A program made the position numbers and the translations under genes. Of a stretch of 64,000 nt of DNA, positions 10,786 through 30,060 are shown piece after piece. The stretch spans positions 62,001 to 126,000 of the forward strand of contig JABJBP010000021.1 in NCBI GenBank assembly GCA_018665815.1, given 5' to 3'. Each line of letters begins with the position of its first letter. Within the stretch, counting starts at the first letter, position 1. The notes beneath the pieces were generated by a model. It was given only the letters and a program-made list of their open reading frames with translations, did not search any database and had not been told where the DNA came from. The stretch comes from Rhodospirillaceae bacterium. Lineage in GTDB: Bacteria > Pseudomonadota > Alphaproteobacteria > Rhodospirillales > Casp-alpha2.

Positions 10786-10821
10786 GGGGTTGCGTGGGGT
10801 CACGATGGGAACTGATACTCT

Positions 10822-11229: not shown

Positions 11230-11312
11230 CAGCTCGTCTCCGTTTTTCACCACATTGCCGCGCGTGTTCGAAGCTGCCAGGATACGCCGCTGTAGATTGA
11301 GGAGACAAGCCG

Positions 11313-12716: not shown

Positions 12717-12718
12717 CG

Positions 12719-13512: not shown

Positions 13513-14766
13513 ATGGCTGTCGACAACATTGAACTGAATGGGATCACCTACGCGTGGCCGAAGAAACCGGTGGCGGTTGTCTGTATTGACGGCGGTGACC
13601 CGCTCTACATGGATCATGGGTTCTCGGGCGGCATTATCCCAACGATGACGCGGTTCCGCGACGAAGGCTTCTATGCCGTGGCCAGAGGCTCCATGCCAAG
13701 CTTCACGTGCCCCAACAACATGTCCATCGTGACCGGCACCGAACCCAACCAGCACGGTATTTCCGGCAATTTTTATCTCGATCGCAAGACCGGCGAGCCC
13801 GTCGTCATGACTGAACCTGGCCTGTTGCGCTCGCGTTCCGTGATGGCCGAGTTTTCACGCCATGGCGCCAAGGTCGCTTCGGTGACAGCCAAAGACAAGC
13901 TGCGCAAGCAACTGCAGAAAGACATGGACCTGTCGAACGGCTCGGTTAGTTTTTCGGCCCAGTTCGCCGATCAATGCACGGTCGCGGAAAACGGCATCGA
14001 CAATGTCTTGGACTACGTCGGCAAACCGCTGCCCGACATGTATTCGGCCGACCTGTCACTGTTCGTCCTGGACGCCGGCATTCGGCTTTTGGAAGAACGC
14101 CGTCCGGACATCCTCTATCTCTCGCTGACCGACTTCATCCAGCATGCCCACGCGCCGGGCGCGCCGGAGGCCGATGATTTTTACAAGGAACTCGACGCCC
14201 GCTTCCAACGCCTCCAGGAACTGGGCGCCATCGTCGCGCTGACCGCCGATCACGGCATGGCCGACAAGGCCGATGCGGACGGCAACCCCAACGTCATCTG
14301 GTTGCAAGATATCTTGGAAGAAGCCTTCGGTGAAGGTTGCTGCCAGGTGATCTGCCCGATCACCGACGCCTTCGTCGGCCACCACGGGGCCTTAGGCGGG
14401 TTTGTCCGGGTCTATTGCAACGACGGTTTGACAGCCGACCAAGTCCTGGACGCCATCAAGGACGTGCCCGGCATCGGCAAGGCCTGGAACGCGGAAGGCG
14501 TGGTCGAGGAATTGGAACAGCCGCTTGACCGCGAGGGCGACGTCGCCGTGATGGGTGATGCGACGACGGTCATCGGCGCGCGCGCCGTCGACCACGATCT
14601 TTCCGCCCTTAAGGGCAAGCGGTTGCGCACCCACGGCAGCCTGACGGAGGCCGACGTGCCGTTTGTCATCAGCGAGGCCTTGAACGAGGCCTATGCGGCC
14701 AGGGGCGCCAAGGGCGGGCTCCGCAGTCACGAAATTTTTGACTTCGCACTCAACGGCGTCGCGTAA
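13513..14766 (+). CDS. phnA: Phosphonoacetate hydrolase PhnA
   Basis: Hydrolyses phosphonoacetate to acetate and phosphate using a two-zinc alkaline-phosphatase-fold site; cytoplasmic. 417 residues, the usual length. Seen: VVCIDGGDPLYMDHG near residue 22-36 (first metal Asp), SFTCPNNMSIVTGT near 63 with the expected Thr nucleophile, LSLTDFIQHAHAPG (metal Asp and His), ALTADHGM (Asp-His pair) and THGSLTEADVP (last His). These match PhnA rather than general nucleotide pyrophosphatases. Shine-Dalgarno GTGGGAGATTTGGGTT. First gene of an operon with an alcohol and an aldehyde dehydrogenase. Confidence 0.93.
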   Translation: MAVDNIELNGITYAWPKKPVAVVCIDGGDPLYMDHGFSGGIIPTMTRFRDEGFYAVARGSMPSFTCPNNMSIVTGTEPNQHGISGNFYLDRKTGEPVVMTEPGLLRSRSVMAEFSRHGAKVASVTAKDKLRKQLQKDMDLSNGSVSFSAQFADQCTVAENGIDNVLDYVGKPLPDMYSADLSLFVLDAGIRLLEERRPDILYLSLTDFIQHAHAPGAPEADDFYKELDARFQRLQELGAIVALTADHGMADKADADGNPNVIWLQDILEEAFGEGCCQVICPITDAFVGHHGALGGFVRVYCNDGLTADQVLDAIKDVPGIGKAWNAEGVVEELEQPLDREGDVAVMGDATTVIGARAVDHDLSALKGKRLRTHGSLTEADVPFVISEALNEAYAARGAKGGLRSHEIFDFALNGVA

Positions 14767-14779
14767 GAGAAAACTGACC

Positions 14780-15874
14780 ATGAGCAAGACCGGCCGCGCA
14801 GCGGTTTACGACGCACCGAACGAGCCCTTTGTGATCCGCGACTATCCGGTCCGCGATGTCCACGCCGACGAAGTGTTGGTGAAGGTCACCATGTCGACCA
14901 TTTGCCGGTCCGACATTCACTCATACCAAGGTCACCGCCCGAACCCATGTCCGGGCATTCTGGGTCATGAAATCGTCGGCGTTATCGAACAGTTGGGCGC
15001 CGATATGGTGCATGACATGCGCGGCGATAAATTGGCCACCGGCGACCGGGTGACCTGGACGGAATTTTTCCATCACGGTGAATCGTATTACCGCGACGTC
15101 CACGACATGCCGCAGAAATCCGATGGCGTGCGAAAATACGGCCACGACCTAGCGGAAGAGGACCCGCATTTTTTGGGCGGCTTTGCCGAATATTGTTACA
15201 TCCAACCCGGCACCGGTATTCTGAAGCTCCCCGATGCCATCACCGACGAAGAAGCGACACCACTGAACTGCGGCGTGGCGACGATGATTTCGGTGACCGA
15301 AGCCGCCAAAATCGATGTCGGTGACACCGTCGTCGTCCACGGATTGGGATTACTTGGGCTTTACGGCTGCGCCATCGCCAAGGCACGTGGTGCCCGGCGG
15401 GTCATCGGCGTGGACGCCGTTGCCGACCGTCTGGATATCGCAAAAAAATTCGGCGCCGACGCGACCTTCGACGTCAGCGCCATGAGCGAGGATAACCTGG
15501 TCTCAGCCGTGCGCGCCGAATGCCCGCCCGACGGCGCCGATGTGGGCCTCGAGGTCTGCGGGTTCGCCGGTGTCGTACCTGTGGGTGTACGTATGTTGCG
15601 TGTCGGCGGGTGTTTTGTGATCGGCGGTCTGGTCAATCCGGATGCCAATTTTGAGATCGACGGCAATCAGATCCTAAAAAAAATGATTACCCTGAAGGGC
15701 GTGCACAATTATCACCCGCGCCATCTGATCCAGGCTCTGGATTTCGTCATGAGCAATCGCGACCGGTACCCCTTTGGCGATATTGTCGATTCGAAATTTT
15801 CCCTCGATCAATTGGATGAAGCCTTTGCTCGCGCCGCCGACCGCTCCGTGCTGCGCGCCGCCATCGTGCCTTAA
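14780..15874 (+). CDS. Zinc-type alcohol dehydrogenase of the phosphonate-catabolism-associated kind
   Basis: 364 residues, medium-chain dehydrogenase fold with GroES-like N-domain (STICRSDIHSYQGH, GILGHEIVGVIEQLG) and NAD-binding Rossmann motif VVHGLGLLGLYG. The KYGHD...GGFAEYC and NCGVAT segments match the alcohol dehydrogenases recurrent in phosphonate clusters (HpnZ-type). Catalytic zinc Cys and His are present, but the four-cysteine structural-zinc loop is degenerate here (HHGESYYRDVHDMPQKS). Probably interconverts a phosphonate alcohol and phosphonoacetaldehyde (inferred). ATG 14780 lies 13 nt after phnA; the longer frame from 14693 overlaps phnA and is not used. Confidence 0.85.
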   Translation: MSKTGRAAVYDAPNEPFVIRDYPVRDVHADEVLVKVTMSTICRSDIHSYQGHRPNPCPGILGHEIVGVIEQLGADMVHDMRGDKLATGDRVTWTEFFHHGESYYRDVHDMPQKSDGVRKYGHDLAEEDPHFLGGFAEYCYIQPGTGILKLPDAITDEEATPLNCGVATMISVTEAAKIDVGDTVVVHGLGLLGLYGCAIAKARGARRVIGVDAVADRLDIAKKFGADATFDVSAMSEDNLVSAVRAECPPDGADVGLEVCGFAGVVPVGVRMLRVGGCFVIGGLVNPDANFEIDGNQILKKMITLKGVHNYHPRHLIQALDFVMSNRDRYPFGDIVDSKFSLDQLDEAFARAADRSVLRAAIVP

Positions 15875-15910
15875 CGTATAAGGCCCCCCAATTAAGAAGG
15901 AGCCTCGGCC

Positions 15911-17371
15911 ATGGATGCCTCGACCAGTCCCGACCTCGGATTTACCCCCAAGGGCCTCTACATCGGCGGGGAGTGGCAGGACGCCGCCGACGGCCGCACG
16001 TTCGCGTCTACCAATCCGTCGAACGGCGAGCACTTGGGCGACGTGCCGCTGGCCGGCGAAGTCGATGTGGACCGTGCCGTCGCTGCCGCCAAAACCGCGT
16101 TCACCGATTGGGGCCGCGCACCGGTGAAGGAACGCGCCCAGGCGCTGAATGCCTTCGCCGATAAATTGGTCGCCCACAAGGAAGAGCTGGCGCTCATGGA
16201 CAGTGTCGATTCAGGTAACACCCTGGCCGGCATGCAAGGTGACGTGGATTGGACGGCGGCGACGCTCAAGTTCTTCGCCGGGCTGATCACCGAGATCAAG
16301 GGTGAGACCTCATCGCAACAGGCCGGGCACCTCAACATGACCATGCGCCAGCCCTACGGTGTGGTCGCCAAAATCAACGCCTTCAATCATCCCTTCCGGT
16401 TTTGCGCCGAAAAAGCCGCGGCGGCGCTGGCGGCCGGCAACACGGTGGTCGCCAAGGCCTCCGAACAAGCGCCGCTCTCGAGCCTCCGCCTCGCCGAATT
16501 GTCGAAAGGCATCCTGCCGCCCGGCGTCTTCAACGTCGTCACCGGTGATGGCGCCACGGGCTCGGCCATGGTCCGCCATCCGGACGTGCCGCGCGTTGGT
16601 TTCGTTGGTTCCGTTGAAACCGGCCGATTGATTGCGCGTGATGCCGCCGAAGGCCTGAAACACGTCACCCTGGAACTGGGCGGCAAGAACCCGATCATTA
16701 TCTTCCCTGACGCCGATCCGGTGAAAGCGGCGACGGCCGCGATCAAGGGCATGAACATGAACCGCCAGGGCCAATCGTGCTCATCCACATCGCGCGTCTT
16801 CGTTCATCAAAATCTGCAAAACGCGGTTAACGAAGAACTGGTCAAGCAAGCCGAAGCCTTGCCCATCGGCATGCCTTGGGTCGACGGCAATGAGGTCGGC
16901 CCGGTGGTTTCCGACAAGCAATTAGAGCGGGTCAAAGGCTTCATCGCCTCAGCCCATGAGGACGGCGCGGCTCTGCTGACCGGCGGCGGCGTCCCGACCG
17001 ACCCGGCGCTGGCGAACGGGCACTTCATCGAACCGACCGTGTTCGGCAACGTCACGCCTGAAATGCGCATCGGCCATCAGGAAATTTTCGGCCCCGTCAT
17101 GTCGGTGCTGGCCTGGGATGATTACGAGGACATGCTGGCCAAAGCCAACGGCGTCATGTACGGCCTGACCGCCACCATCGTCACCAATGACTTTAAAATG
17201 GCCATGGAGACGGCCGAACGCATTGAGGCGGGTTATGTCTGGGTCAACGCCCAAGGCCGATATCTGGGCGCGCCCTACGGCGGCTGGAAACAAAGCGGCC
17301 TCGGCCAGGAAGAATGCCTCGATGAGCTGCTCAGCTACACGCAGATCAAGAATATCAATATGCGGTGGTAG
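15911..17371 (+). CDS. Aldehyde dehydrogenase, candidate phosphonoacetaldehyde dehydrogenase
   Basis: 486 residues of NAD(P)-dependent aldehyde dehydrogenase. Visible: NAFNHPFRFCAEKAA (substrate-channel helix), GSVETGRLI, the catalytic Glu in LELGGKNPIIIFPDAD and the catalytic Cys in NRQGQSCSSTSR; C-terminal GGWKQSGLGQEE. Sequence alone places it in the broad betaine-aldehyde-like group. Its position 36 nt after the alcohol dehydrogenase and behind phnA suggests it oxidises phosphonoacetaldehyde to phosphonoacetate, the PhnY role. A Shine-Dalgarno AGAAGGAG precedes the ATG. Assignment of substrate is inference. Confidence 0.88.
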   Translation: MDASTSPDLGFTPKGLYIGGEWQDAADGRTFASTNPSNGEHLGDVPLAGEVDVDRAVAAAKTAFTDWGRAPVKERAQALNAFADKLVAHKEELALMDSVDSGNTLAGMQGDVDWTAATLKFFAGLITEIKGETSSQQAGHLNMTMRQPYGVVAKINAFNHPFRFCAEKAAAALAAGNTVVAKASEQAPLSSLRLAELSKGILPPGVFNVVTGDGATGSAMVRHPDVPRVGFVGSVETGRLIARDAAEGLKHVTLELGGKNPIIIFPDADPVKAATAAIKGMNMNRQGQSCSSTSRVFVHQNLQNAVNEELVKQAEALPIGMPWVDGNEVGPVVSDKQLERVKGFIASAHEDGAALLTGGGVPTDPALANGHFIEPTVFGNVTPEMRIGHQEIFGPVMSVLAWDDYEDMLAKANGVMYGLTATIVTNDFKMAMETAERIEAGYVWVNAQGRYLGAPYGGWKQSGLGQEECLDELLSYTQIKNINMRW

Positions 17372-17529
17372 GGGCGCGATTATCCCCTCAGTAGGCATCG
17401 GGAAACCGCCGCTCAGCGACAAATTTTGCTGATTTTATTGGTCGTGAAAGCGGAACTGCTTTTCATTGAGGCGCGATTGCCCTAAGAACGCCGCCCCTTC
17501 CCCATTCGCCCAAAGTGGACCCATACGAC

Positions 17530-19146
17530 ATGACCGTGCATACACCGACGCTTGCAGATTTTGCGGCTCGCCTTTCTTCGGTCAATTGGCGGGATTCTGA
17601 CCTTCCGGCCTTTTCCATCGGGCATGTCAAAACCGAAGTCCTTTCAGGACTTACCGTGGCGTTGGCGTTGGTGCCGGAAGCGGTCGCCTTTTCATTCGTT
17701 GCCGGCGTTCATCCGCTTGTCGGCCTATATGCGGCCTTTATCGTTGGCCTGATTACTGCAGTCATTGGCGGTCGCCGAGGGATGATTTCGGGGGCAACCG
17801 GCGCGCTCGCCGTTGTCATGGTGGCCCTGGTCGCCAGTCATGGCGTTGAATACCTGTTTGCGACGGTGGTGTTGATGGGTGTTTTGCAGATTTTGGCGGG
17901 CATATTGCGGCTTGGAAAATTCATTCGCCTGGTCCCCCACCCTGTCATGCTGGGGTTTGTAAACGGCCTCGCCATTGTCATATTTCTAGCCCAACTCACC
18001 CAATTTCAAGTGCCAGGGCCGGACAATATCCAAGTCTGGATGACCGGTTTTCCGTTGGCCAGTATGTTGGGCTTGGTGGCCCTCACCATGGTCATTATCT
18101 GGCTGATGCCGAAAATTACCACCGTGATCCCAGCGCCCCTCGCCGGCATTGTGGTCGTCGCCTCTATTGTCATTCTATTTGGCATTGAAGTGCCGCGTGT
18201 CGGGGATCTGGCATCGATTAAAGGCGGCTTGCCCGTTTTCCACATCCCCATGGTGCCGTTGAGCTTGGAAACCCTACAAGTCATCTTTCCATTCGCGCTG
18301 GTTCTCGCGGCCATCGGATTGATCGAGAGCCTACTGACGCTCAATTTGGTCGGTGAGATCACCAACAGACGTGGCGGCGCCTCGCAGGAATGTATTGCGC
18401 AGGGCCTGGCCAATACCGTCACCGGCTTTTTTGGTGGCATGGGCGGGTGCGCGATGATCGGCCAATCCATGATCAACGTTAAATCCGGTGGACGCACGCG
18501 CCTCTCGGGTATTTCGGCGGCCTTGTTTCTTTTGTCTTTCATCCTCGTTGGCTCCGAATTGATCGAGCAGATCCCACTCGCCGCCCTGGTCGGCGTGATG
18601 TTTATGGTCGTTATCGGCACCTTCGCCTGGCAAAGCTTGACCATCTTGCGCCGCATTCCCCTGACCGATGCCTTGGTGATGGGGCTTGTGACCATTGTCA
18701 CCGTTATGACCGATCTGGCCATTGCCGTCGTTGTCGGCGTTATTGTGTCCGCCCTGGCCTATGCGTGGAACAACGCGGTCCGGATCCGGGCGTCCCGCGA
18801 AATGACAAGTGATGGTGCGAAAATCTATCGGATAGAAGGGCCGCTGTTTTTCGGATCCGTAGACGGGTTTGCTGAAATATTTGACCCGCAAGATGATCCC
18901 GACCTGGTCATTGTCGATTTCATGAATAGCCGCGTCGTCGATCAATCCGCCCTCCAGGCCATCGATGCACTTTCGTCGAAATACGAAACGCATGGCAAAA
19001 CACTTCAGCTCAGGCATCTGTCCCCCGACTGCCACCGGCTTCTCAGCCGGGCCGGCCAACTCATCCAAGATTCCGATGACGACCCGAACTACGGCCTGGC
19101 CGTCGATTACCGGGTCAAAACCGGGCGATTGGGTGGCGGGCACTAG
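17530..19146 (+). CDS. SulP/SLC26-family anion transporter with STAS domain
   Basis: 538 residues, inner membrane. N-terminal GLTVALALVPEAVAFSFVAGVHPLVGLYAAF is the SulP signature; about 10-14 hydrophobic segments follow to residue ~420. The C-terminal part (IYRIEGPLFFGSVDGFAEIF...VIVDFMNSRVVDQSALQAID) is a STAS domain. SulP proteins carry sulfate, bicarbonate, carboxylates or other anions; the substrate cannot be told here. It follows the phosphonoacetate genes on the same strand after 158 nt, so export or uptake of an organic anion is possible. The GTG at 17515 adds five residues; ATG 17530 is preferred. Confidence 0.9.
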   Translation: MTVHTPTLADFAARLSSVNWRDSDLPAFSIGHVKTEVLSGLTVALALVPEAVAFSFVAGVHPLVGLYAAFIVGLITAVIGGRRGMISGATGALAVVMVALVASHGVEYLFATVVLMGVLQILAGILRLGKFIRLVPHPVMLGFVNGLAIVIFLAQLTQFQVPGPDNIQVWMTGFPLASMLGLVALTMVIIWLMPKITTVIPAPLAGIVVVASIVILFGIEVPRVGDLASIKGGLPVFHIPMVPLSLETLQVIFPFALVLAAIGLIESLLTLNLVGEITNRRGGASQECIAQGLANTVTGFFGGMGGCAMIGQSMINVKSGGRTRLSGISAALFLLSFILVGSELIEQIPLAALVGVMFMVVIGTFAWQSLTILRRIPLTDALVMGLVTIVTVMTDLAIAVVVGVIVSALAYAWNNAVRIRASREMTSDGAKIYRIEGPLFFGSVDGFAEIFDPQDDPDLVIVDFMNSRVVDQSALQAIDALSSKYETHGKTLQLRHLSPDCHRLLSRAGQLIQDSDDDPNYGLAVDYRVKTGRLGGGH

Positions 19147-19472
19147 ATTTGTTGCTAGAAGTGTTGAACGGGTAATGCACCGCGACAGAACACCTCTCGT
19201 TGACCACTTGGGGTCACGAAGAGGCGTTTGAAGCGATCCCGAATGAAGTCCGCTTCATCGCCTCAATTCAGGCATCGATTTGAGATTTCTGAAATTTCGG
19301 ACATTGGGGGCCGCTTAGCCCCCCGCAAGCGGACATAATTTCAGATCGCCGTGAACAGCCGTTTGTAGCCACAAAGAGACATTTCGATGTCAATGGTAGA
19401 AACATCGGAAGACACCAATCTCGCCCCCCGTCATACAGTTCCAGTGACTAGAGAGCCACCTTGGGCCAGGAG
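19147..19472. other. Non-coding stretch between sulP and the phosphatase gene
   Basis: No supported gene. GGGGGC at 19306-19311 and GCCCCC at 19318-19323 form a 6-bp hairpin without a T tract, in a stretch with CGGACAT-like motifs often seen in degenerate alphaproteobacterial intergenic DNA. Both flanking genes end here, so a terminator function for the hairpin is possible. Confidence 0.4.
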
Positions 19473-20252
19473 TTAACCTGCGATGATGCGCAGCGCCTGT
19501 TCATGGACCCTGGGATCACCGGCGGCAACGAGCCGGTCGCCCGAATGAAGACCGAGAGGCTCACCGCTCCAGGCGGAAATAACGCCGCCCGCCCCTTCGA
19601 TGACCGTGACCAGCGCCAAATAATCGTGAATACCGAACCGCACATCAAACCCGACATCGATGCGTCCCGTCGCCAATTGCGCATAGGACATACAGCTGCC
19701 GCCGTAGACGGCCAAGCGGGTCGCGGCTTTCATGCGGGTCAGAACATCAATGTCTTCGGGACCGTAAAAATCCTGATTACTGGTCGACATCAAGGCCATC
19801 GACAAATCATTGCAGGCTCGGGTTCGCACGGGCTTCCCGTTGCGCAAGGTCTGCTTGCCGCGCTGCCCGACCCAGCGCTCACCGGTCATCGGCATATCGA
19901 TGATACCCAGTACTGGCCTATTGCCCTGCATCAATGCGATCAGGGTGCCGAATACGGGAATGCCCGCCAAGAACGGCAACGTGCCATCAATAGGGTCAAT
20001 GACCCACACCAATTCGGCATCGGGAAATAATGGCTCATGCTCCTCGCCGATGATGCCATGACTGGGATGGCGCTCCGCGATGATCGCGCGAATGCAATCT
20101 TCTGTCGCTTTGTCGACATCGGTGACCGGACTACCGTCACTTTTGATTTCAGTCTCCAACGGATGCTCTGCGGCTTCGCGGATTAGCTTGCCTGCCGCAT
20201 CCGCCATGAGTTCCGCGCTGCGGGCAAAGGATGAAATATGGCAATCGTTCAT
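19473..20252 (-). CDS. Inositol-monophosphatase-family phosphatase, HisN-like
   Basis: 259 residues. Magnesium-dependent phosphomonoesterase: metal motifs IIGEEHEP and WVIDPIDGTLPFLAGIP near the middle, and the later metal Asp in FDVRFGIHDYLALVTVIEGAGG. Closest in style to histidinol-phosphate phosphatases of the HisN type used by many alphaproteobacteria, but IMPases, CysQ and fructose bisphosphatases share these motifs, and no his genes are nearby. ATG 20252 is preceded by CAAAGAATTGACC; the TTG two codons earlier is less likely. Confidence 0.88.
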   Translation of the reverse strand: MNDCHISSFARSAELMADAAGKLIREAAEHPLETEIKSDGSPVTDVDKATEDCIRAIIAERHPSHGIIGEEHEPLFPDAELVWVIDPIDGTLPFLAGIPVFGTLIALMQGNRPVLGIIDMPMTGERWVGQRGKQTLRNGKPVRTRACNDLSMALMSTSNQDFYGPEDIDVLTRMKAATRLAVYGGSCMSYAQLATGRIDVGFDVRFGIHDYLALVTVIEGAGGVISAWSGEPLGLHSGDRLVAAGDPRVHEQALRIIAG

Positions 20253-20429
20253 GGTCAATTCTTTGTGTCGGATCTGGGCGTGGGCAAATTTAAATCAATC
20301 ATTTAGAGTGCGGTTGCCCAAAACGTATAGTTCCAGGCATTTCAATTTGCATTCCGAGATGCCACAGCTATTGTCGATGATGCTACGGCTGTTCGCAAAT
20401 TGCCGCCAACGAACGCGGCGGTATGCGTG

Positions 20430-21053
20430 ATGAACTGGATCGATAAAATGGACAACGGCATGAAAATCGATAACCCGTCCAGCGCCGAAACCGAGCCGAA
20501 TTCATACTCAGGTGATTTAATAATTTCAACCGTGCCCATCGTCGGTGAAGCCGTCATTGGCATCGTCCCGTGTCCAGGTCGAAATCAAGTTGATACGGGC
20601 GATCCGCGTTGGCATCGGGAACTCGAGGCGGACCTGACCACGTTGGAAGCGTGGGGCGCTAATGCCTTGGTTTCCCTGGTTGAAGCCCATGAATTTCCGC
20701 GTCTTGGCGTTCCCAATTTTGGCGAGGCGGTACGCCGCCGGAATTTTCGCTGGCATCATTTGCCAATCGTCGATATGGCGCCCCCGGGTTCGGAATTTCA
20801 AAACGCTTGGAACGTGCAGGGGGATCAAATTCTTCAAGGCCTGAAGGGCGGCGAGCGGGTGGTCGTGCACTGCGCCGGCGGGCTCGGACGTAGCGGAATG
20901 ATCGCCGCCAAACTGCTCGCCATTTTCGGCACCCCGCGCGATGAGGCCATCGCGAAAGTTCGCGAAGCGCGCCCGGGAGCCATTGAGACCAGCAAGCAGG
21001 AAAACTATGTCTTGGCCGGACCGCCGCTCTCCGTAAGGCTAGCGGGCGGTTGA
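20430..21053 (+). CDS. Protein-tyrosine/dual-specificity phosphatase family protein
   Basis: About 207 residues. The P-loop VVHCAGGLGRSGM has the Cys-x5-Arg-Ser signature near residue 145, and LPIVDMAPPGSEF upstream carries the general-acid Asp. The fold resembles the CDKN3-like bacterial tyrosine phosphatases. The substrate may be a phosphoprotein or a small phosphate ester. The start is uncertain: ATGs at 20430, 20448 and 20460 are in frame and none has a strong ribosome site. Its stop is 9 nt from the stop of the convergent transporter permease. Nothing ties it to phosphonate use except position. Confidence 0.8.
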   Translation: MNWIDKMDNGMKIDNPSSAETEPNSYSGDLIISTVPIVGEAVIGIVPCPGRNQVDTGDPRWHRELEADLTTLEAWGANALVSLVEAHEFPRLGVPNFGEAVRRRNFRWHHLPIVDMAPPGSEFQNAWNVQGDQILQGLKGGERVVVHCAGGLGRSGMIAAKLLAIFGTPRDEAIAKVREARPGAIETSKQENYVLAGPPLSVRLAGG

Positions 21054-21062
21054 ACCGGCAAA

Positions 21063-22763
21063 CTACCGTCTGCGCCACGCCTGGAGGCGATAGAGCAGTT
21101 TCCCAGTAACGACGGCGTGCAGAACCCGAACGATGATGCAGGCGTAGACGATCAACATCGCCATCGCCGCCGCCGCCGCGGTCTCGCCGGCCTCATCCAT
21201 GTGAATGGCGGCAACGGCCGCGACCTTTGTCGACGGGCCATAGAGGAAAATGATGGCGGATACCGTGGTCATGGAATTGAGGAACAGGTAAATCGAGATG
21301 TCAAAGATTGCCGGCATGCACACGGGCACCGTAATGCGCCAGAAACTTCGTGCCATGGGCACTTGCAACGACGCCGACACGGACTCGAATTCCCTATCCA
21401 TCTGCTTCAACGCGGTCACCGCCGTCAGATGCGAAACCGTGTAGAAGTGGGTAATTGTGCTGAGCACCAGAATGGCGATCGTGCCATAAAGGAAACCCAG
21501 CGGATTATCCGGGTGGTTGATGAAAAACAGATACGCCAGTCCAAGAACCAGACCCGGCACTGCCAACGGCAACAGGGCGATGAACTGGATCGCTTGTCGG
21601 GCAATCGGATCACGGCGCGGTTTCTCCACCATGTATGCCCCGACGAAGACGATAAACGTCCCGATGACGGCAACGCTCACGGCGACGGAGAGGGAATTCA
21701 AGAAATTTTCCCACCCGACACCCTCAAGCTCGAAGGAGAAATGTTCGAGCGTCAGGGTCAGGTTGTAGGGCCAGAGCGTCACCAGCGACGCGTACTGGGC
21801 CATGCCGAGGATAGCCAGCGTAAACAGCGTGACCAGCAGGCAGAACGTGAACATTGAATGATCGACGGCCCGGTTCGGCTTCGGCGCGTAGGGCACGGCG
21901 CGCGCCGACATCAGTGCCACCTGTTTCCGCGTGACGATGCGGTCGATGGCGAAGGCAATAACCGCGGGGATCAACAGAACAACCGAAACCACGGCACCCA
22001 TCCCGAAATTTTGCTGACCGATGACCTCTTTGTAAATATCGGTGGCGAGAACGTTAAAGTTGCCGCCGATGACCTTGGGTACGCCGAAATCCGTGAACAC
22101 TAAGATGAAGACGACAATGATGGCGCTGATCAGGCCGTAACGGGCACCGGGCAACGTCACCGTGAAGAAGACACGGGCCCGGCTTGTCTTCAAAACCTCG
22201 GCCGCCTCATAAAGGCGAATATCCGACAACGCCAAGGCTGTCCCGATCATCAGAACAGCATGCGGGAAGGTCCAGAACACGGAGGCGATGATGATGCCGA
22301 TGGGGCCGTAAATAGAATTGCCCATCAACAGGTCTTTCAATACGCCCTGGTTGCCGAACCAGTAAACCAGCGCAATCGCCTTCAGAAGTGACGGACTCAA
22401 TAGTGGCACCATGGCCATGATCTTGAAGAAGCCCTTGAACCGCATGCAGGTTCGGTTCAGTGCGTAGGCGTATAGGAAGGCGATGATGATAACGATGACG
22501 GTGCTGACGCTGGCGACGAAGAAGCTGTTGTAGATGGATTGCGAAAGCGCCGGCGTATTGAAGTATTCCCAATAGTTATCGAGCCCGACGAAGTTGTCTT
22601 TGGCATCGTGGAAACTGCGCGAAATCATCATGTAGAGAGGGATCGCCAGCGCCACCATGAAGAAGCCGGCGAAGGCGACCAGCAGCCCGCGGACCACCCA
22701 ATCATCCCGGTCGAGTTCCAGCTTGCCGCGCGCCGGAGAAATAGTTGTCGCGGTGGGGCTCAC
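21063..22763 (-). CDS. Fused ABC permease, 2-aminoethylphosphonate/iron type
   Basis: 566 residues with two permease halves in one chain (about 12 transmembrane segments), the arrangement of Fe(III) and 2-aminoethylphosphonate importers. EAA-type loops are seen at LYEAAEVLKTSRARVFFTVTLP in the first half and MDREFESVSASLQVPMARSFW in the second. The GTG start at 22763 is preceded by AGGGGATTGATCG and lies 3 nt after the ATPase stop, so the two are one operon. The matching binding protein is divergent at 25131. The 2-aminoethylphosphonate assignment rests on that protein and on nearby phnA. Confidence 0.88.
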   Translation of the reverse strand: MSPTATTISPARGKLELDRDDWVVRGLLVAFAGFFMVALAIPLYMMISRSFHDAKDNFVGLDNYWEYFNTPALSQSIYNSFFVASVSTVIVIIIAFLYAYALNRTCMRFKGFFKIMAMVPLLSPSLLKAIALVYWFGNQGVLKDLLMGNSIYGPIGIIIASVFWTFPHAVLMIGTALALSDIRLYEAAEVLKTSRARVFFTVTLPGARYGLISAIIVVFILVFTDFGVPKVIGGNFNVLATDIYKEVIGQQNFGMGAVVSVVLLIPAVIAFAIDRIVTRKQVALMSARAVPYAPKPNRAVDHSMFTFCLLVTLFTLAILGMAQYASLVTLWPYNLTLTLEHFSFELEGVGWENFLNSLSVAVSVAVIGTFIVFVGAYMVEKPRRDPIARQAIQFIALLPLAVPGLVLGLAYLFFINHPDNPLGFLYGTIAILVLSTITHFYTVSHLTAVTALKQMDREFESVSASLQVPMARSFWRITVPVCMPAIFDISIYLFLNSMTTVSAIIFLYGPSTKVAAVAAIHMDEAGETAAAAAMAMLIVYACIIVRVLHAVVTGKLLYRLQAWRRR

Positions 22764-22766
22764 CGA

Positions 22767-23888
22767 TCAATCCCCTGTCTGGTAGAGCCGAATGCTCTCG
22801 GCGGGAATTCGAATGCGCAAGGCCTGGTTCACGGCGACGCCACGATCGCGGGCCAAATCCTTTCGAACATCGGCGCGTATTTCGGCGTCACCGAGTATTG
22901 GGTTTTTCAAATAGAGCCGGACAAACGATCCCAGGTACTCGATATCGCTGATGGTCGTTTCAATCAGGTTCCCGGTTCCGTCCCCGGTTCCGTCCCTGGT
23001 GCCATCCCCGACATCATCCAGCAGCACATCCTCGGGTCTGACGGCGCAGCTGATGTTTGCCCCGGCGGCGAAACCGCCGGCATCGCACTGCAGCTGGAGA
23101 TCACCGCAATTGACGGTGGTCGAGTCGCCGACCGTGACCGGGAGAAAATTCATGACGCCGATGAAATCGGCAACGAACGGGGTCGCCGGCTCGTCATAGA
23201 TCTCCCCCGGCGAGCCAATTTGCTCAATCCGTCCGCCGTTCATCACGAATATCCGGTCGGCCATGGTCTGGGCTTCCTCCTGATCATGGGTGACCATGAT
23301 CGTCGTCACACCGAGGCGGTCCTGAATGCCCCGAATCTCCCGCCGGAGATGGGCCCGGACCTTGGCGTCGAGCGCCGACAAGGGCTCGTCGAGCAACAGC
23401 AACCCCGGTGACGTGGCGAGTGCCCGCACCAGAGCGACGCGCTGTTGTTCGCCGCCGGAAAGCTGGCCTGGATATTTATCGGCATGGCTGGCAAGGCCGA
23501 CGAGACCAAGCAACTCCGTGACCCGTGCGGCCATATCCGCGCTCGCCATCTTCTTGTTGACCAGACCATAGGCGACGTTGTCGGTGACGTTCAGGTTCGG
23601 GAACAACGCATAGGATTGAAACACGATGCCGAAGTCGCGGCGCGACGGCGGCAACCACGAAATGTCCTCGCCGCTCATGTGAATCGAACCTTCGGTTTGC
23701 GTCTCAAGTCCTGCAACGCAGCGCAACAACGTCGTCTTGCCGCAGCCCGATGGTCCGAGAAAGCAAATGAACTCGCCTTCACCGATATCGAAGCTGATAT
23801 CGCTCAGCGCACGGAAAGTACCGAAATCCTTTGTCACTCCAGAAAGTACGAGATAACCGTTTTCGACTGACGCGTTGCCGGTATCCAT
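22767..23888 (-). CDS. ABC transporter ATPase, 2-aminoethylphosphonate type
   Basis: 373 residues. Walker A is [12 protein letters not shown], the signature [15 protein letters not shown] and Walker [14 protein letters not shown], followed by the H-loop VTHDQEEA and a C-terminal TOBE-like domain. ATG 23888 has a strong Shine-Dalgarno (GAGGGGGGAG) and is chosen over the 26-residue longer frame. The C-terminal domain contains three tandem DGTx tetrapeptides from a 12-nt DNA repeat at 22971-23006. Drives the fused permease downstream. Close relatives import Fe(III), spermidine or aminoethylphosphonate; context favours the last. Confidence 0.88.
22971..23006. repeat. Three 12-nt tandem repeats inside the ATPase gene
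   Basis: Units CCCGGTTCCGTC, CCCGGTTCCGTC and CCTGGTGCCATC run head to tail and encode [12 protein letters not shown] on the minus strand. The unit length is a multiple of three, so copy-number change would keep the frame. Confidence 0.8.
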
Positions 23889-24037
23889 GTGGTCTCCCCC
23901 CTCGGCGCACCGAGGAACGGATGTTTGGGTGATCCGTGCCACGGCGGCAATCGGCGTTCCCGTCATTCCGTTATTCTAATGGATCACGACTGTATCAACC
24001 CGCCGGGTCATTGCGCTAATTAAATTTTCCGGTATAT

Positions 24038-24056
24038 TTATAAGAATTACTTATAA
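24038..24056. promoter_or_regulatory. Perfect LysR-type inverted repeat between lysR and the transporter genes
   Basis: TTATAAG (24038-24044), five nt, CTTATAA (24050-24056). The symmetry and T-N11-A core match LysR-family binding boxes. It ends 15 nt before the lysR ATG and lies in the 183-nt spacer shared with the divergent ATPase/permease operon, so it could serve both autoregulation and activation. Confidence 0.6.
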
Positions 24057-24071
24057 TGATTGCAGTAAACC

Positions 24072-24971
24072 ATGAACGAACGACAATTGCTTGCCTTCAA
24101 ATACGTCATTCAACACGGCACCATGACGAAAGCTGCGGAGCTATTGCATGTGACCCAGTCGGCGGTCAGCCAAATGATCACCAATCTGGAGCAGGATCTG
24201 GGGTTTCCGGTATTCGAGCGACGCCAGGGGAAAATCACACCGACCCCGCAGGGCCGAAGTTTCCTGGCCGAGGCCGATAGCGTGCTCGACACCATGGGCA
24301 AGGCGCGGCGAGCCGCCATCGAACTCAAAAATTTGTCGATCGGCAATTTCAGGGTTGCGGCGACGTCGGTCTTCGCCCTGAGCCTGCTGCCGAATGCGCT
24401 GGCTAAATTCAACAAAAAACACCCGGGCATCACCACCTCACTGCAAGCCCATCATTCCCGCGAAGTCCGTGAACTGGTGACCTCGCAGATCTTCGATCTC
24501 GGTGTTTGCGAGCTTCACCAGGAACCGCAAGCCATGGAGGTCGACTGCCACGAGGTCCGTTGTGCGTTCGTATGCCATCGCGACGACGCGCTGGCGCAAC
24601 TTCCTGTCGTTACCCCGGGCGACCTTGAAGACCGAACGATTGTTACGCTCTACGATCAGCATCCGACAACAATTGCGCTCCGCAAGGCGTTCAGAGACCA
24701 AGGCGCCTCTTGGAATTCACACATTGAATGCAATCTTTTCGCGGCGGCTTGCCAACTTGTGCTGCGCGGCGGTGCCGTCGCGTGGGTTGATCCTTTTACA
24801 TTATCAATGTTCTCGCACCCGGCGCTCTACGTCCACCCGTTTCAACCGGAAATTTCTCTGCGCTTCGCAATCCTTCAGTCACCTGAGGACCAACAACCAC
24901 CGCACGTCGCCGAGATGATCTCATTCATCCGCGAGGACATTGAGGCGCATAGCGTTCGCACAGACATCTGA
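24072..24971 (+). CDS. LysR-family transcriptional regulator
   Basis: 299 residues. N-terminal winged helix: ERQLLAFKYVIQHGTMTKAAELL then HVTQSAVSQMITNLEQDLG (recognition helix) and FERRQGKITPTPQG (wing). The remainder is the periplasmic-binding-protein-like effector domain. Lies between the transporter ATPase/permease operon (divergent) and the binding-protein gene (same strand, 159 nt on), so it probably senses the phosphonate or a breakdown product and controls uptake. A perfect operator-like repeat sits just before it. The effector is not known. Confidence 0.92.
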   Translation: MNERQLLAFKYVIQHGTMTKAAELLHVTQSAVSQMITNLEQDLGFPVFERRQGKITPTPQGRSFLAEADSVLDTMGKARRAAIELKNLSIGNFRVAATSVFALSLLPNALAKFNKKHPGITTSLQAHHSREVRELVTSQIFDLGVCELHQEPQAMEVDCHEVRCAFVCHRDDALAQLPVVTPGDLEDRTIVTLYDQHPTTIALRKAFRDQGASWNSHIECNLFAAACQLVLRGGAVAWVDPFTLSMFSHPALYVHPFQPEISLRFAILQSPEDQQPPHVAEMISFIREDIEAHSVRTDI

Positions 24972-25130
24972 GAACGCCGAATTTTAGGATTTTCCGCCTC
25001 AACGGCGACCTTAAAGATTATTAGAAAAATCGATATTTCTCTTGTCGTCAAAATTCACCGGTTCTAAGCTGTTCGGCATAAAGATCAAATAACGGGGGCT
25101 TGAGCCCTCGGATACAGGGAGGAAATTGTT

Positions 25131-26189
25131 ATGTCGAAACGATTGCATCATGCATTCCGGCGTGTATCGGTCGGTGCCGTATCGGTTGCCGCGGCGCTGG
25201 CATTGACGTCGACGGTGGAAGCGGCCAGTGAACTGACCGTGTACTCGACCACCGACGCGGATAACCTGAAGGTCATCGCCAAGGCTTTCCAGAAGTCAAA
25301 TCCCGACATCAAGATCAATTGGGTCCGGGATTCAACGGGGATCATCGCCGCACGCGTGCTGGCGGAGAAGAACAATCCGAAAGCCGACGCGATATTCGCA
25401 CTGGCGGCAACCAGCATGCTGGGTTTCGACGATCTCGGAATGTTCGTCCCGTATTCGCCGAAGGGTGTCTCAAAGCTCGACAAGCGCTACCAAGACGGCA
25501 ACAACGATCCTGACCACTGGGTCGGCATCTATGGCTGGGCCGGCGCCGTCTGCTTCAACACAATCGAAGCTAAGAAGAACAATCTGCCGAAGCCAACCAA
25601 GTGGTCCGATCTGACCAACCCGGTCTACAAGGGGCACGTGACCATGCCCAATCCGGCATCCTCGGGCACCGGCTTTCTTGATGTCTCGAGCTGGATTCAG
25701 ATTTGGGACGAGGCCAAGGCTTGGGCGTTCATGGACAAGCTCCACCAGAACGTCGCATCTTATACTCACTCCGGCTCCAAACCCTGCAAAATGGCTGCCG
25801 CCGGCGAGACCACGGTTGGCATTTCGTGGCCGTTCCGTGGCGCAAAGTTAAAATCGAAGGGCGCCCCCATCGATATCATCGTGCCGGAAGAAGGCATCGG
25901 CTGGGAGATGCAGGCGGTCGCCATCCTGAAGGGCACAAAGAACCTGGAAGCGGCGAAGAAATTCGTCGACTGGGCGGTGACGGAATCGGCCATGGAGATT
26001 TACGCGAACCGTTATTCGGTCGTAGCCATGCCGGTGAAGACCAAAAAGTGGGACCACTTCCCGCCTGAGGTCCAGACCCGGATGATCAACAATGATTTCA
26101 CCTGGGCGGCCAACAACCGATCACGCATCATCAAGGAATGGCGCAAGCGTTACGACGTCAAATCCGAACCGAAGAAGAAAAAGGGTTAA
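25131..26189 (+). CDS. ABC substrate-binding protein, putative 2-aminoethylphosphonate type (AepX/PhnS-like)
   Basis: 352 residues, periplasmic. Sec signal peptide MSKRLHHAFRRVSVGAVSVA... ends near VEAA-SE. The mature part starts ELTVYSTTDADNLKVIAKAF and contains IKINWVRDSTGIIAARVLAE, a segment characteristic of the aminoethylphosphonate-binding proteins and their iron-binding relatives. Strong Shine-Dalgarno GGGAGGAAATTGTT. The tyrosine clusters of ferric-binding proteins are not evident, which favours the organic phosphonate over iron. Together with the divergent ATPase and fused permease it makes a complete importer. Confidence 0.88.
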   Translation: MSKRLHHAFRRVSVGAVSVAAALALTSTVEAASELTVYSTTDADNLKVIAKAFQKSNPDIKINWVRDSTGIIAARVLAEKNNPKADAIFALAATSMLGFDDLGMFVPYSPKGVSKLDKRYQDGNNDPDHWVGIYGWAGAVCFNTIEAKKNNLPKPTKWSDLTNPVYKGHVTMPNPASSGTGFLDVSSWIQIWDEAKAWAFMDKLHQNVASYTHSGSKPCKMAAAGETTVGISWPFRGAKLKSKGAPIDIIVPEEGIGWEMQAVAILKGTKNLEAAKKFVDWAVTESAMEIYANRYSVVAMPVKTKKWDHFPPEVQTRMINNDFTWAANNRSRIIKEWRKRYDVKSEPKKKKG

Positions 26190-26280
26190 GCCCCGATTTC
26201 TCCTGGTATGGGGCGTCGCGGTGGTCCCGTCCGGGGCCGCCGCGCGCCGCGTCCATTTCGGTTAGTTGGTGACGGTCGTC

Positions 26281-27945
26281 TCAGCGCTGCGCAATTTTCC
26301 AGTCCTGCGTCTGATGGAAAGGCGCCGATGACGGCGCCAGCGGCGCGCGACCAAGAACCGCATCGGCCAGTTTCTCGGCGATCATGATCGTCGGGGCGTT
26401 CAAATTGCCGGTGGTGATTTGTGGCATGATTGAGGAATCGATGACCCGAAGACCGGCCATCCCATGCACGCATCCCTGCACGTCGACGACCGCGCCCTCA
26501 TCGTCGCCCATGCGGCAGGTGCCCGACGGATGGTAGGCGCTTTGCACGGTCTCGCGGACGAAGGCATCAATTTCCGCATCACTGGTGACGGGGTTTCCGG
26601 GGGCGATCTCGTCGCCCCGGTAGGCGGCCATCGCGGGCTGGGCGAGGATCTCCCGGGTCAAGCGGACACTGGCCCGCATCTCACGCCAATCATCGTCATG
26701 GGACATGTAGTTGAACCGCACACTCGGCGCCTGATGGGGATCGGGGCCGCGCAAAAGCACCCGGCCGCGGCTCTTCGAACGCATCGGCCCGACGTGGGCC
26801 TGAAAGCCATGCCCGTCAACCAGCGCGCTGCCGTCGTAGGCAATCGCCAGCGGCAAGAAATGATACTGGATATCCGGGTAGGGCACGCCGGCCCGGCTTC
26901 GGATAAAGCCGCCGCTTTCAAAATGATTGGTCGCGCCCAGCCCGCGCTTCGCAAGCAGCCATTTCAGGCCGATGCCCAATTTTGCAAGCGGCCTCATTGC
27001 CGAATACAGGCTTACCGGTTGAAGGCAGCGGTACTGGATATAGAGTTCCAAATGGTCCTGCAGATTACGCCCGACCCCCTTCAGGTGGTGGACAACATCA
27101 ATGCCGTGGGCGCCAAGGTCTTGGCCGTCGCCGACACCGGAAAGCATCAACAATTGCGGCCCGTTGATTGGGCCGCTCGAAATGATAACTTCTTTGGCGG
27201 CTTTTGCGTGCCGTGTCTGGCCCGCCAACTCATAATTGATCCCACAGGCACGCCGGTTCTCAATGACAATCCGCGTTGCCAGGGCGCCGCTCTGGACACA
27301 AAGATTGGCGCGGCGAAGGGCCGGCTTCAGATAAGCGTTCGAGGTGCTCCAGCGGCGTCCTTCATGGATGGTCATGTCCATCCAGCCGAAACCTTCCTGG
27401 CGATAGCCGTTCATGTCTTCGGTCCGGGCATAGCCGGCCTCAGCCGCCGCCGCAACAAAGGCCGCGTAAAGCGGATTTGTCCGCCTGCCGCGCTGCGTCC
27501 ACAGCAATCCCGCCCCGCCCCGGTAGGCGTCGCTACCTTCCGCAAACGTTTCGGCGCGCTGGAAGTAGGGCAGCACATCGGCGTAAGACCAGCCCGCCGC
27601 CCCGCCCGCCGCCCAGCCTTCATAGTCAAGCGCATTGCCGCGCACATAGACCATGCCGTTGATCGACGACGAGCCGCCCAGCACCCGGCCGCGCGGACAA
27701 TGCAACTGACGGCCACCAAGATGCGGCTCCGGCTCGGTCCAATAGCGCCAGTCATATTCGGCGCTGTTCATGGGAATCGACAACGCCGACGGCATTTGTA
27801 TGAAAACGCTGCGGTCGGAACCTCCGGCCTCAAGGAGCAGAACCTTGTTGGCGGCGCCTTCACTCAAACGGTTCGCGAGGACACATCCCGCCGATCCAGC
27901 GCCAACGATCACATAGTCGAAGGTCTCGTCGTTTACGGTCGGCAT
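26281..27945 (-). CDS. GMC-family FAD oxidoreductase (choline dehydrogenase-like)
   Basis: 554 residues. N-terminal FAD motif YVIVGAGSAGCVLANRLSE; GMC signature GRVLGGSSSINGMVYVRGN; second signature GPINGPQLLMLSGVG; catalytic His in SAYHPSGTCRMG and a further conserved segment near LRVIDSSIMPQITTGN. Oxidises an alcohol to an aldehyde, electrons passing to the respiratory chain or oxygen. Choline dehydrogenase is the named relative, but in this phosphonate region a phosphonate alcohol or another alcohol is possible. Convergent with the binding-protein gene; divergent from the HAD gene. Confidence 0.9.
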   Translation of the reverse strand: MPTVNDETFDYVIVGAGSAGCVLANRLSEGAANKVLLLEAGGSDRSVFIQMPSALSIPMNSAEYDWRYWTEPEPHLGGRQLHCPRGRVLGGSSSINGMVYVRGNALDYEGWAAGGAAGWSYADVLPYFQRAETFAEGSDAYRGGAGLLWTQRGRRTNPLYAAFVAAAAEAGYARTEDMNGYRQEGFGWMDMTIHEGRRWSTSNAYLKPALRRANLCVQSGALATRIVIENRRACGINYELAGQTRHAKAAKEVIISSGPINGPQLLMLSGVGDGQDLGAHGIDVVHHLKGVGRNLQDHLELYIQYRCLQPVSLYSAMRPLAKLGIGLKWLLAKRGLGATNHFESGGFIRSRAGVPYPDIQYHFLPLAIAYDGSALVDGHGFQAHVGPMRSKSRGRVLLRGPDPHQAPSVRFNYMSHDDDWREMRASVRLTREILAQPAMAAYRGDEIAPGNPVTSDAEIDAFVRETVQSAYHPSGTCRMGDDEGAVVDVQGCVHGMAGLRVIDSSIMPQITTGNLNAPTIMIAEKLADAVLGRAPLAPSSAPFHQTQDWKIAQR

Positions 27946-28099
27946 GGGCTGACTTTTCTCCTGCGGACGTTAAGGTGCGGAATGGCTATCTATGTCTCTA
28001 ATCTGTTGGCAGGCTGCGTCAAGGGTAGGGTTCGCGATGGTCTTCCAGGGGCGTACGCACGGCGTCCTCTCAATCTGCAAATGGAAAGAGGCCCGGCCC

Positions 28100-28831
28100 A
28101 TGGTGCGCACTAAGAATTTTGCCGATATTCGCGGCATCTTGTTCGACAAGGACGGCACACTTGTTGATTTCCACGGCACTTGGCTGCCGGCGTACCGGAG
28201 CCTTGCCACCAGCTTTGCCAATGGCGATCCATCCCTGGCCGGCCGCCTCTTGCGGCTCGGCGGCGCGGACCCCGATAGCGATGAGATTGACGCCAATTCA
28301 GTATTCGCCGTCGGGCCCATTTCCGACGTAGCGGCAATTTGGCACACGCTGCTTGAGGATTGGGAATTGGAAGAGTTGAATACCGCTGTCATCGACGGCC
28401 TTGCGGCGGGGACATTGCACCATTGCCGGGCTTTCGACGGCATGGCAGCATTGTTGAAACGGCTTTCGGCGCTCGGGTTCAGACTTGGCGTTGCGACCAA
28501 CGATGGAGAAAACGGCAGCCGAGCCATGCTTGAACGACTGGACCTCATCGATAGTCTGGATTTCGTCGCCGGATGGGACAGTGGATTTGCTGCCAAACCG
28601 GCGCCCGACATGGTCGACGGTTTCTGCCAAGCGACACGCTTGGCGCCGGAAGCCGTCGTCGTGGTCGGCGACAGCGTCGCCGACATGGAGATGGCGAAAC
28701 AGGCGCAAGCCGGCGTATCCGTTGGGGTTCTCTCGGGCACCGGCGGACGGAAAGACCTAGTTAAAATTGCTGACGTCATCATTGAAAGTGTGGCCGAGCT
28801 GGAAGCCCTCCTTGGGGGTGATGGGCAATGA
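28100..28831 (+). CDS. HAD-family phosphatase (phosphoglycolate phosphatase-like)
   Basis: 243 residues. HAD motif I ILFDKDGTLVDFHGTW, motif II LGVATNDGENG, motif III Lys in FAAKPAPDMVD, motif IV VVGDSVADMEMA. The FDKDGT form is that of phosphoglycolate-phosphatase-like enzymes, not the FDWAGT form of phosphonoacetaldehyde hydrolase PhnX, so a C-P bond hydrolase is not claimed. ATG 28100 has GAAAGAGG upstream; the longer frame from 27992 reaches into the divergent promoter. Its stop overlaps the next start (ATGA), so it is translationally coupled to the FAD oxidoreductase. Confidence 0.87.
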   Translation: MVRTKNFADIRGILFDKDGTLVDFHGTWLPAYRSLATSFANGDPSLAGRLLRLGGADPDSDEIDANSVFAVGPISDVAAIWHTLLEDWELEELNTAVIDGLAAGTLHHCRAFDGMAALLKRLSALGFRLGVATNDGENGSRAMLERLDLIDSLDFVAGWDSGFAAKPAPDMVDGFCQATRLAPEAVVVVGDSVADMEMAKQAQAGVSVGVLSGTGGRKDLVKIADVIIESVAELEALLGGDGQ

Positions 28832-30060
28832 AGGTTTGCGTCATTGGCGCCGGTATCGTCGGGATGTCGAGTGCCAGTTATCTTCTGCGCGACGGCCACG
28901 AGGTGGTCCTCATTGACCGGGACGAGCCCGGCGAAGGGTGCTCGAAAGGCAATGCCGGCGCGCTCAGTCCCGGCAGTTGTATTCCCTTGTCGTCGCCGGA
29001 CGTCCTGCGCAACGTGCCCAAATGGCTTTTCGATCCCGGCGGTCCGTTGCATATTCGGCCCGCCTATTTTCTCCGCGCGATCCCGTGGCTGGCGCGGTTC
29101 GTCGCCGCCGGCCGCGCCCATCGAATTGACGCCCTGGCCGATGCTCTGCGTTCGCTCAACCGTAATACCTTTGAGAATTACGCTCCGCTGGTGGCCAACG
29201 CGGGCTGTGCCGATCTAATCCGAAATACGGGTTCGCTGGTCGTCTTCAAGACCGAAAGAGGGTTCGACGGCAGTAAGCGTGAATGGGATATTCGCGGCGC
29301 TCGGCAGGTCCGTCAACAGCGCCTCGACGCCCGGGCGCTTAGCGATTTGGTACCGAATCTGTCCCCTGAATACCGTCACGGCATCTTGCTGCCCGACCAT
29401 GGTTATGTTGCCGACCCCCATCGGCTGACAAACGTCCTCGCCGAAACCTTCGTCCGAGATGGCGGCAAGATTATGCGTTCAGCCGTGAGCCGGATCGAGC
29501 CTCTGGCCGGCGGGATCACCCGTTTGCATACGGATGGCGCAACCATTGATGCGGAAAAGGTCGTGCTTGCCGCTGGCGCGTGGTCGGCGCGGCTGCTGGC
29601 ACCGCTCGGTGTATCGGTGCCGCTGGAAACTCAGCGCGGCTATCATATCATGGTCGCCAATGCCAATCAGATGCCGTCCCTGCCGGTGGTGTCCGCCGAT
29701 GCCAAGGTTTATGCGACGCCGATGGAACACGGGTTACGGTTTGCCGGCACGGTCGAATTCGCCGGCCTGGAAGCGGCGCCTGACTACCGGCGTGCCGACG
29801 CGCTGGTGCCTTTGGCGAAAGACATGTTTCCGGGATTGGAGATAGATACCGTCACCCGGTGGATGGGCCATCGGCCATGCCTCCCCGATTCACTGCCCAT
29901 CATCGGTACGGCGCCTCGTCATCCGTCGCTGGTTCTCGCCTTTGGGCACGGTCATCATGGCATGACCGGCGCATCGACGACCGGGCGTATTGTTGCAGAT
30001 ATCATTGCCGGGCGGCCGTCGGGCGTCGATCTTACACCCTATCGCGCCGAGCGCTTTTGA
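28828..30060 (+). CDS. FAD-dependent amine/D-amino-acid oxidoreductase (DadA-like)
   Basis: 410 residues. Dinucleotide motif MKVCVIGAGIVGMSSASYLL followed by GNAGALSPG, then VVLAAGAWSARLLAPLG and the C-terminal FAD segment RPCLPDSLPIIG...GHGHHGMTGASTTG. Fits the DAO family (D-amino-acid dehydrogenase, glycine/sarcosine oxidase relatives). Members of this family recur in phosphonate clusters, and some are reported to convert aminoethylphosphonate or its N-methyl form to phosphonoacetaldehyde. That role here is an inference from position near phnA and the importer. Starts inside the HAD stop codon. Confidence 0.88.
   Translation: MKVCVIGAGIVGMSSASYLLRDGHEVVLIDRDEPGEGCSKGNAGALSPGSCIPLSSPDVLRNVPKWLFDPGGPLHIRPAYFLRAIPWLARFVAAGRAHRIDALADALRSLNRNTFENYAPLVANAGCADLIRNTGSLVVFKTERGFDGSKREWDIRGARQVRQQRLDARALSDLVPNLSPEYRHGILLPDHGYVADPHRLTNVLAETFVRDGGKIMRSAVSRIEPLAGGITRLHTDGATIDAEKVVLAAGAWSARLLAPLGVSVPLETQRGYHIMVANANQMPSLPVVSADAKVYATPMEHGLRFAGTVEFAGLEAAPDYRRADALVPLAKDMFPGLEIDTVTRWMGHRPCLPDSLPIIGTAPRHPSLVLAFGHGHHGMTGASTTGRIVADIIAGRPSGVDLTPYRAERF

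Follow-up and report, generated by a model that had tools for sequence, protein, structure and literature searches.

How does a locus that combines the phosphonoacetate hydrolase PhnA with an aminoethylphosphonate (AEP)-type importer obtain the aldehyde precursor of phosphonoacetate, when no PhnW transaminase is encoded nearby? The question is raised by a 64,000-nucleotide stretch of DNA, here called the window, which corresponds to bases 62001-126000 of a 187 kb contig (C109, JABJBP010000021.1) of Rhodospirillaceae bacterium GCA_018665815.1, a metagenome-assembled genome (MAG; G000) of 3.9 Mb in 157 contigs that is 98% complete. The phosphonate genes of the window fall into two separate units, a phnA-hpnZ-aldehyde dehydrogenase (ALDH) operon (13.5-17.4 kb) and a cluster of AepXVW importer, GMC, HAD and FAD enzyme genes (21.1-30.1 kb), with SulP, HisN-like and dual-specificity-phosphatase-like genes between them. 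We propose that the first unit is a self-contained operon for the degradation of 2-hydroxyethylphosphonate (HEP) and that the second is an accessory unit, a reading to which we give a probability of about 0.55. In the proposed route HpnZ would use NAD(P)+ to oxidise HEP to phosphonoacetaldehyde, the ALDH of the window would convert phosphonoacetaldehyde to phosphonoacetate, and PhnA would split the carbon-phosphorus (C-P) bond of phosphonoacetate to give acetate and phosphate, so that the operon (13513-17371) would be catabolic in its own right and would not need a transaminase. The features of the window are listed in Table 1.

The phnA-hpnZ-ALDH operon

The three genes form a tight operon. 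The likely start of hpnZ, 13 nt after phnA, is at 14780, the open reading frame start at 14693 being too long, and the ALDH gene starts 36 bases after hpnZ, with a likely ribosome-binding site in front of it. PhnA passes both the TIGR02335 cut-off and the inspection of its metal and nucleophile residues: the metal or catalytic residues D26, T65, K127, K129, D207, H211, D246, H247 and H374 align with 3szy, and all nine are present in the window protein and invariant in 60 homologues. In a tree of 76 PhnA proteins, for which the hpnZ-linked sequences were collected via hpnZ and the 12 phnWAY-type sequences all came from the family of this bacterium, the phnWAY-type proteins stand apart from the hpnZ-linked ones (support 86/72), and the window PhnA falls among the latter, within small well supported groups.

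The product of hpnZ belongs to the same zinc alcohol dehydrogenase (ADH) family as TIGR03366, HpnZ_proposed (putative phosphonate catabolism associated alcohol dehydrogenase), and shares its association with phosphonate genes. All ten HpnZ proteins scored, from the window and related loci, reach 277-290 bits against this model, below its cut-off of 328, and the window type would, on these sequences, be a sister clade of TIGR03366 and no strict member of it. The zinc ligands C42, H63, E64 and C164 are invariant in 79/79 homologues. HpnZ is unrelated to PbfF, the HAEP racemase, an identity that we considered and rejected: PbfF is a PF02826 protein, HpnZ a PF08240/PF00107 zinc enzyme of the medium-chain dehydrogenase/reductase type. 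The best models for the ALDH are those of betaine aldehyde dehydrogenase, every one of them below cut-off, and against the PhnY model TIGR03250 it scores 239 bits for a cut-off of 636. Its catalytic Cys290 and Glu255 are conserved in 39/39 sequences, and the histidine of the FNHP motif (His159) is common to window-type ALDH and PhnY (40/40), while betaine aldehyde dehydrogenase does not have it. An ADH, an ALDH and a phosphonoacetate hydrolase in a row would take an alcohol to an aldehyde, then to an acid and then to cleavage; the natural compound that matches this chemistry is HEP, a major marine phosphonate. Since no PhnCDE genes are seen beside the window operon, the SulP permease directly downstream is a possible, if weak, candidate for its transporter.

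Table 1. Features of the two phosphonate units of the window and of their immediate neighbours (positions in the window; scores in bits)
Feature	Position	Strand	Best evidence
phnA, phosphonoacetate hydrolase, hpnZ-linked clade	13513..14766	+	TIGR02335 525, cut-off 408
hpnZ-like zinc ADH, proposed HEP dehydrogenase	14780..15874	+	TIGR03366 282, cut-off 328
ALDH, proposed phosphonoacetaldehyde dehydrogenase outside the PhnY family	15911..17371	+	betaine aldehyde dehydrogenase-like, below all cut-offs
SulP-family permease	17515..19146	+	PF00916; position only
PhnU2/AepW-type fused permease	21063..22763	-	TIGR03262 760, cut-off 593
PhnT2/AepV-type ATPase	22767..23966	-	TIGR03265 486, cut-off 458
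LysR regulator	24072..24971	+	below cut-off of phn_lysR TIGR03339
PhnS2/AepX-type binding protein	25131..26189	+	TIGR03261 457, cut-off 393
GMC oxidoreductase, choline-dehydrogenase (BetA) type	26281..27945	-	TIGR01810 774, cut-off 732
HAD hydrolase, not PhnX	27992..28831	+	TIGR01422 27, cut-off 220
DadA-like FAD amine oxidoreductase	28828..30060	+	PRK00711 240, cut-off 383
phn_DUF6-like EamA membrane protein	30076..30981	-	TIGR03340 145, below cut-off 288

Recurrence of the operon in other genomes

Window-type HpnZ was sought in one genome per species, which gave 80 loci. The phnA gene adjoins hpnZ in 57 of them, and in 46 of the 57 loci with enough flank (that 57 appears twice is a chance coincidence). 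The third gene is the window-type ALDH in 41 of the 80 loci and phnY in 12, and never both, an exclusion with a hypergeometric P of about 6e-5 if the loci are taken as independent. It is because the ALDH and phnY exclude each other in this way that we assign the former its probable role. Importer genes (PhnC, PhnD or PhnE) lie near 37 of the 57 phnA-hpnZ loci, and the regulators found there are of the LysR type or the GntR-type phnR. In a close relative, a Rhodospirillales MAG (G005), a phosphonate importer is joined to the operon in the order LysR-phnD-phnC-phnE-phnE-phnA-hpnZ-ALDH; in another genome (G010) the order phnR-phnA-hpnZ-phnY puts hpnZ next to an enzyme that consumes phosphonoacetaldehyde. 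Carriers of the operon are labelled Alpha-, Beta- and Gammaproteobacteria, Planctomycetes, Chloroflexi, Gemmatimonadota and Spirochaetes, labels some of which may be binning errors.

The other phosphonate genes of these carriers bear on the origin of the aldehyde. Presence or absence in a genome was decided by searches made family by family, with a score over the curated cut-off counted as a match. By this measure, PhnW, PhnY and PhnX are all missing from 13 of the 35 genomes that carry the ALDH-type operon; for two of the 13, the operon lies in a chromosome-level assembly (OY282431, OY282378). The others have PhnW and PhnY (9), a separate PhnWX (5), PhnW only (7) or PhnY only (1). The simplest reading of the 13 genomes is that PhnA is fed only by the ADH and the ALDH and, because the operon occurs there too, the step that forms the aldehyde in the operon is most likely the oxidation of an alcohol by HpnZ and not a transamination. 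In the seven PhnW-only genomes the window-type ALDH is, as judged by the family searches, the only phosphonate-linked candidate for the oxidation of phosphonoacetaldehyde.

Two other arrangements were observed among the hpnZ loci. In nine of them (L048, L049, L050, L052, L054, L057, L061, L082 and L087) phnD-C-E-E is followed by hpnZ as the last gene of the importer operon, with neither phnA nor the ALDH gene in the vicinity; some of the nine end soon after hpnZ, and no recurrent third gene was seen 3' of hpnZ in the phnA-less loci. In L068, phnA, hpnZ, AepXVW, a HisN-like gene and pbfA stand in one row, from which the two phosphonate units of the window may be linked.

The AEP pathway elsewhere in the genome

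No PhnW, PhnX or PhnY over cut-off was found among the proteins scanned from 9.7 to 34.3 kb, and the genome-wide searches place none in the window. The first-pass annotation, which had described a region equipped with PhnA, an HpnZ-type ADH, an ALDH, a complete AEP-type importer with LysR, and GMC, HAD and FAD genes, and devoid of PhnW and PhnX, was right on these points. It left two sources for the aldehyde, another enzyme of the region or one elsewhere in the genome, and proposed a genome-wide search for phnW, phnX, phnY and C-P lyase genes. Both sources prove relevant. The local one is most likely HpnZ, as argued above, and a genome without PhnW can be rejected, as phnW and phnY lie on a second contig, C151 (L006), which carries pbfA, a second AepXVW, a metallophosphatase gene, phnW, a minus-strand block and then phnY. 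PhnW (492 bits, cut-off 401), PhnY (755 bits, cut-off 636), PbfA and AepXVW of this contig all exceed their curated cut-offs. The genome-wide searches gave no PhnX match over cut-off and, in this 98% complete MAG, no match to the C-P lyase protein PhnJ (PF06007). The annotation had further held that a phnWX or phnWAY set elsewhere, accounting for growth, would speak against a different route; such a set largely exists, with PhnW and PhnY on C151, and is completed only by the PhnA of the window, the sole over-cut-off copy found in the genome. From these genes, AEP can be predicted to be degraded by a PhnWYA pathway split over two loci. Because PhnW and PhnY are on C151 and this is the only PhnA over cut-off, the window PhnA probably serves both the HEP route and the AEP route.

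Relatives from the same family and genus have the gene order AepXVW-phnW-phnA-phnY. We looked for a degenerate phnA remnant between phnW and phnY on C151 and found none; phnA is gone from there. Although C151 is short, its sequence makes it unlikely to be a contaminant, because its genes for the binding protein and the permease show 72-88% identity to their counterparts in members of this family and genus. The space that phnA occupies in the relatives is taken on C151 by the minus-strand block (8918-13081), which encodes a HAD hydrolase, a SauS-like acylating aldehyde dehydrogenase and two paralogous citryl-CoA-lyase/citrate-synthase-like proteins. The same block also adjoins the phnA-hpnZ-AepXVW-hisN-pbfA row of L068, part of it is found near phnW/pbfA in L060, and it is possibly another fate of phosphonoacetaldehyde. 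A third contig, C56 (L017), carries at 6348-15146 genes for two D-2-hydroxyacid dehydrogenases, a PhnY-like ALDH without equivalents of PhnY His159, Arg290 and Arg447, a distant PhnA-like hydrolase, a GcvA-type LysR and a phn_DUF6-like protein, a possible separate pathway for phosphonates or phosphonate-like compounds.

The second unit of the window

The three importer subunits PhnS2, PhnT2 and PhnU2, which we equate with AepXVW, are all over cut-off. They are paralogues of the phnW-linked copy on C151, to which they are 56-59% identical (56% for PhnS2/AepX). AepXVW is an AEP transporter (PMC8316502); the window has the same three subunits, although in the company of GMC, HAD and FAD genes, and AEP transport is predicted for it. 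As a whole, the unit would serve the accessory uptake and oxidation of an AEP-like, possibly N-substituted, compound, a substrate proposed from the gene content.

That the region might hold a stand-in for PhnW or PhnX, as the first-pass annotation implied, is not borne out for the HAD hydrolase, which scores far below the PhnX cut-off (27 bits for 220) and has no Schiff-base lysine when aligned to an over-cut-off PhnX. For the FAD enzyme such a role is hypothetical. It is DadA-like, and its identity as HpnW/PbfD can be rejected, with 42 bits against TIGR03364 (cut-off 285), a family that we infer to be PbfD. Within the family no ortholog exceeds 46%, and in the six relatives checked it has no phn gene as a neighbour; the nearest relative found among 386 sampled class-level genomes is 51% identical and lies beside another ABC importer. 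It is nevertheless a possible source of phosphonoacetaldehyde.

A BetA-type GMC oxidoreductase gene paired with a HAD hydrolase gene is seen again in three further genomes (G026, G027 and G092; L131, L133 and L141), with AepXVW, phnW or pbfA as neighbours. Two of these (L131, L141) also have MttB-like methyltransferases, with a FAD-GcvT fusion next to the one in L141. These contexts suggest the catabolism of N-methylated or quaternary aminophosphonates.

Alternative readings

The likeliest alternative is an ordinary PhnWYA pathway in two pieces, in which AEP enters by AepXVW and is processed by PhnW and PhnY of C151, the window contributes only PhnA, and hpnZ and the ALDH scavenge or detoxify aldehydes. 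The over-cut-off phnW, phnY, pbfA and AepXVW genes of C151 speak for it, and so does the loss of phnA from a gene order that includes it in relatives, since the window must then supply PhnA. However, it accounts neither for the recurrence of hpnZ and the ALDH gene together with phnA in different phyla nor for the 13 genomes in which the operon occurs and PhnW, PhnY and PhnX are not found, and the window PhnA groups with hpnZ-linked PhnA, outside the phnWAY clade. We consider this alternative rather unlikely. Another FAD amine oxidoreductase, PbfD2 of Mariniblastus fucicola, offers a precedent for a further alternative, in which the FAD enzyme of the window (28828-30060) stands in for PhnW: FAD amine oxidoreductases that turn AEP or N-methyl-AEP into phosphonoacetaldehyde are known (PMC10590968), and the gene is clustered with the AepXVW importer. 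Yet the low TIGR03364 score of this DadA-like protein, the lack of close orthologs and of phn neighbours in relatives, and the presence of PhnW elsewhere in the genome, which makes a replacement superfluous, render this the least probable of the alternatives considered.

HpnZ could also act on another phosphono-alcohol, such as a hydroxylated aminophosphonate, or work reductively, from phosphonoacetaldehyde to HEP, like the biosynthetic PhpC. Zinc ADHs of its superfamily often use secondary alcohols or reduce aldehydes, and the loci with an importer and hpnZ and no adjacent phnA are compatible with such an activity. The order importer-phnA-hpnZ-ALDH without PhnW is nonetheless a degradative layout, and an ADH followed by an ALDH and a phosphonoacetate hydrolase best matches a primary alcohol, so that we find this explanation improbable. 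HEP oxidation by HpnZ is the reading that we retain, and several observations weigh against it. The HpnZ of the window stays below the TIGR03366 cut-off (282 bits for 328), and among solved structures its closest relative is 1vj0, an alcohol dehydrogenase for which no substrate is stated. Among the four pocket residues that contact the phosphonate in the S. meliloti PhnY, only His159 is shared by the window ALDH and Arg108, Arg290 and Arg447 are not; its substrate pocket therefore differs from that of PhnY. About nine loci have phnDCEE-hpnZ and no adjacent phnA, hence the link between hpnZ and phosphonoacetate is not universal. Nearly all surveyed genomes are MAGs, in which absences can be gaps, and the hpnZ loci are related to each other and not phylogenetically independent.

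Relation to known systems

Hydrolytic phosphonate pathways and the ancillary enzymes PbfA, PbfC, PbfD and PbfF have been described (PMC8154272, PMC10590968, PMC12366243). The proposed route shares with PhnWYA/PhnWAY pathways, such as that of Sinorhizobium meliloti, the ending from phosphonoacetaldehyde through phosphonoacetate to acetate and phosphate by PhnA; in contrast with them, PhnW and PhnY are replaced in the window operon by an ADH and by an ALDH from a different subfamily, and the PhnA of the operon is separate in the tree from the phnWAY-type PhnA of the family. The Pbf enzymes, of which PbfA is encoded on C151, funnel other natural phosphonates into phosphonoacetaldehyde, and none is reported to do so for HEP; a test of PbfF for HEP oxidation ruled it out as a HEP dehydrogenase (PMC12366243). 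Marine isolates use HEP as a phosphorus source through C-P lyase, with release of ethylene (PMC5649143), whereas the proposed route would give acetate, and PhnJ was not found in this genome. In the open-access literature searched, with most subscription journals outside its scope, no paper names an HpnZ of this kind or TIGR03366, and there is no record of a catabolic HEP dehydrogenase; under the terms searched, a 2023 review of phosphonate degradation has no mention of HEP (PMC10574752). A phnA-hpnZ-ALDH route for HEP is described in no open paper that we found, and we predict it to be a new branch of a known pathway family.

We see roughly even odds that phnA-hpnZ-ALDH represents a widespread, C-P-lyase-independent hydrolytic pathway for HEP, in which HpnZ would act as catabolic HEP dehydrogenase and the ALDH as a second, non-PhnY phosphonoacetaldehyde dehydrogenase. 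This prediction, in which both the substrate HEP and the functions of HpnZ and the ALDH are proposed from sequence, can be tested with three enzymes and a phosphate assay. If the route is common, HEP could be a source of phosphorus and carbon that requires no C-P lyase and gives off no hydrocarbon gas, and surveys that use phnW, phnX or phnJ as markers would miss it.

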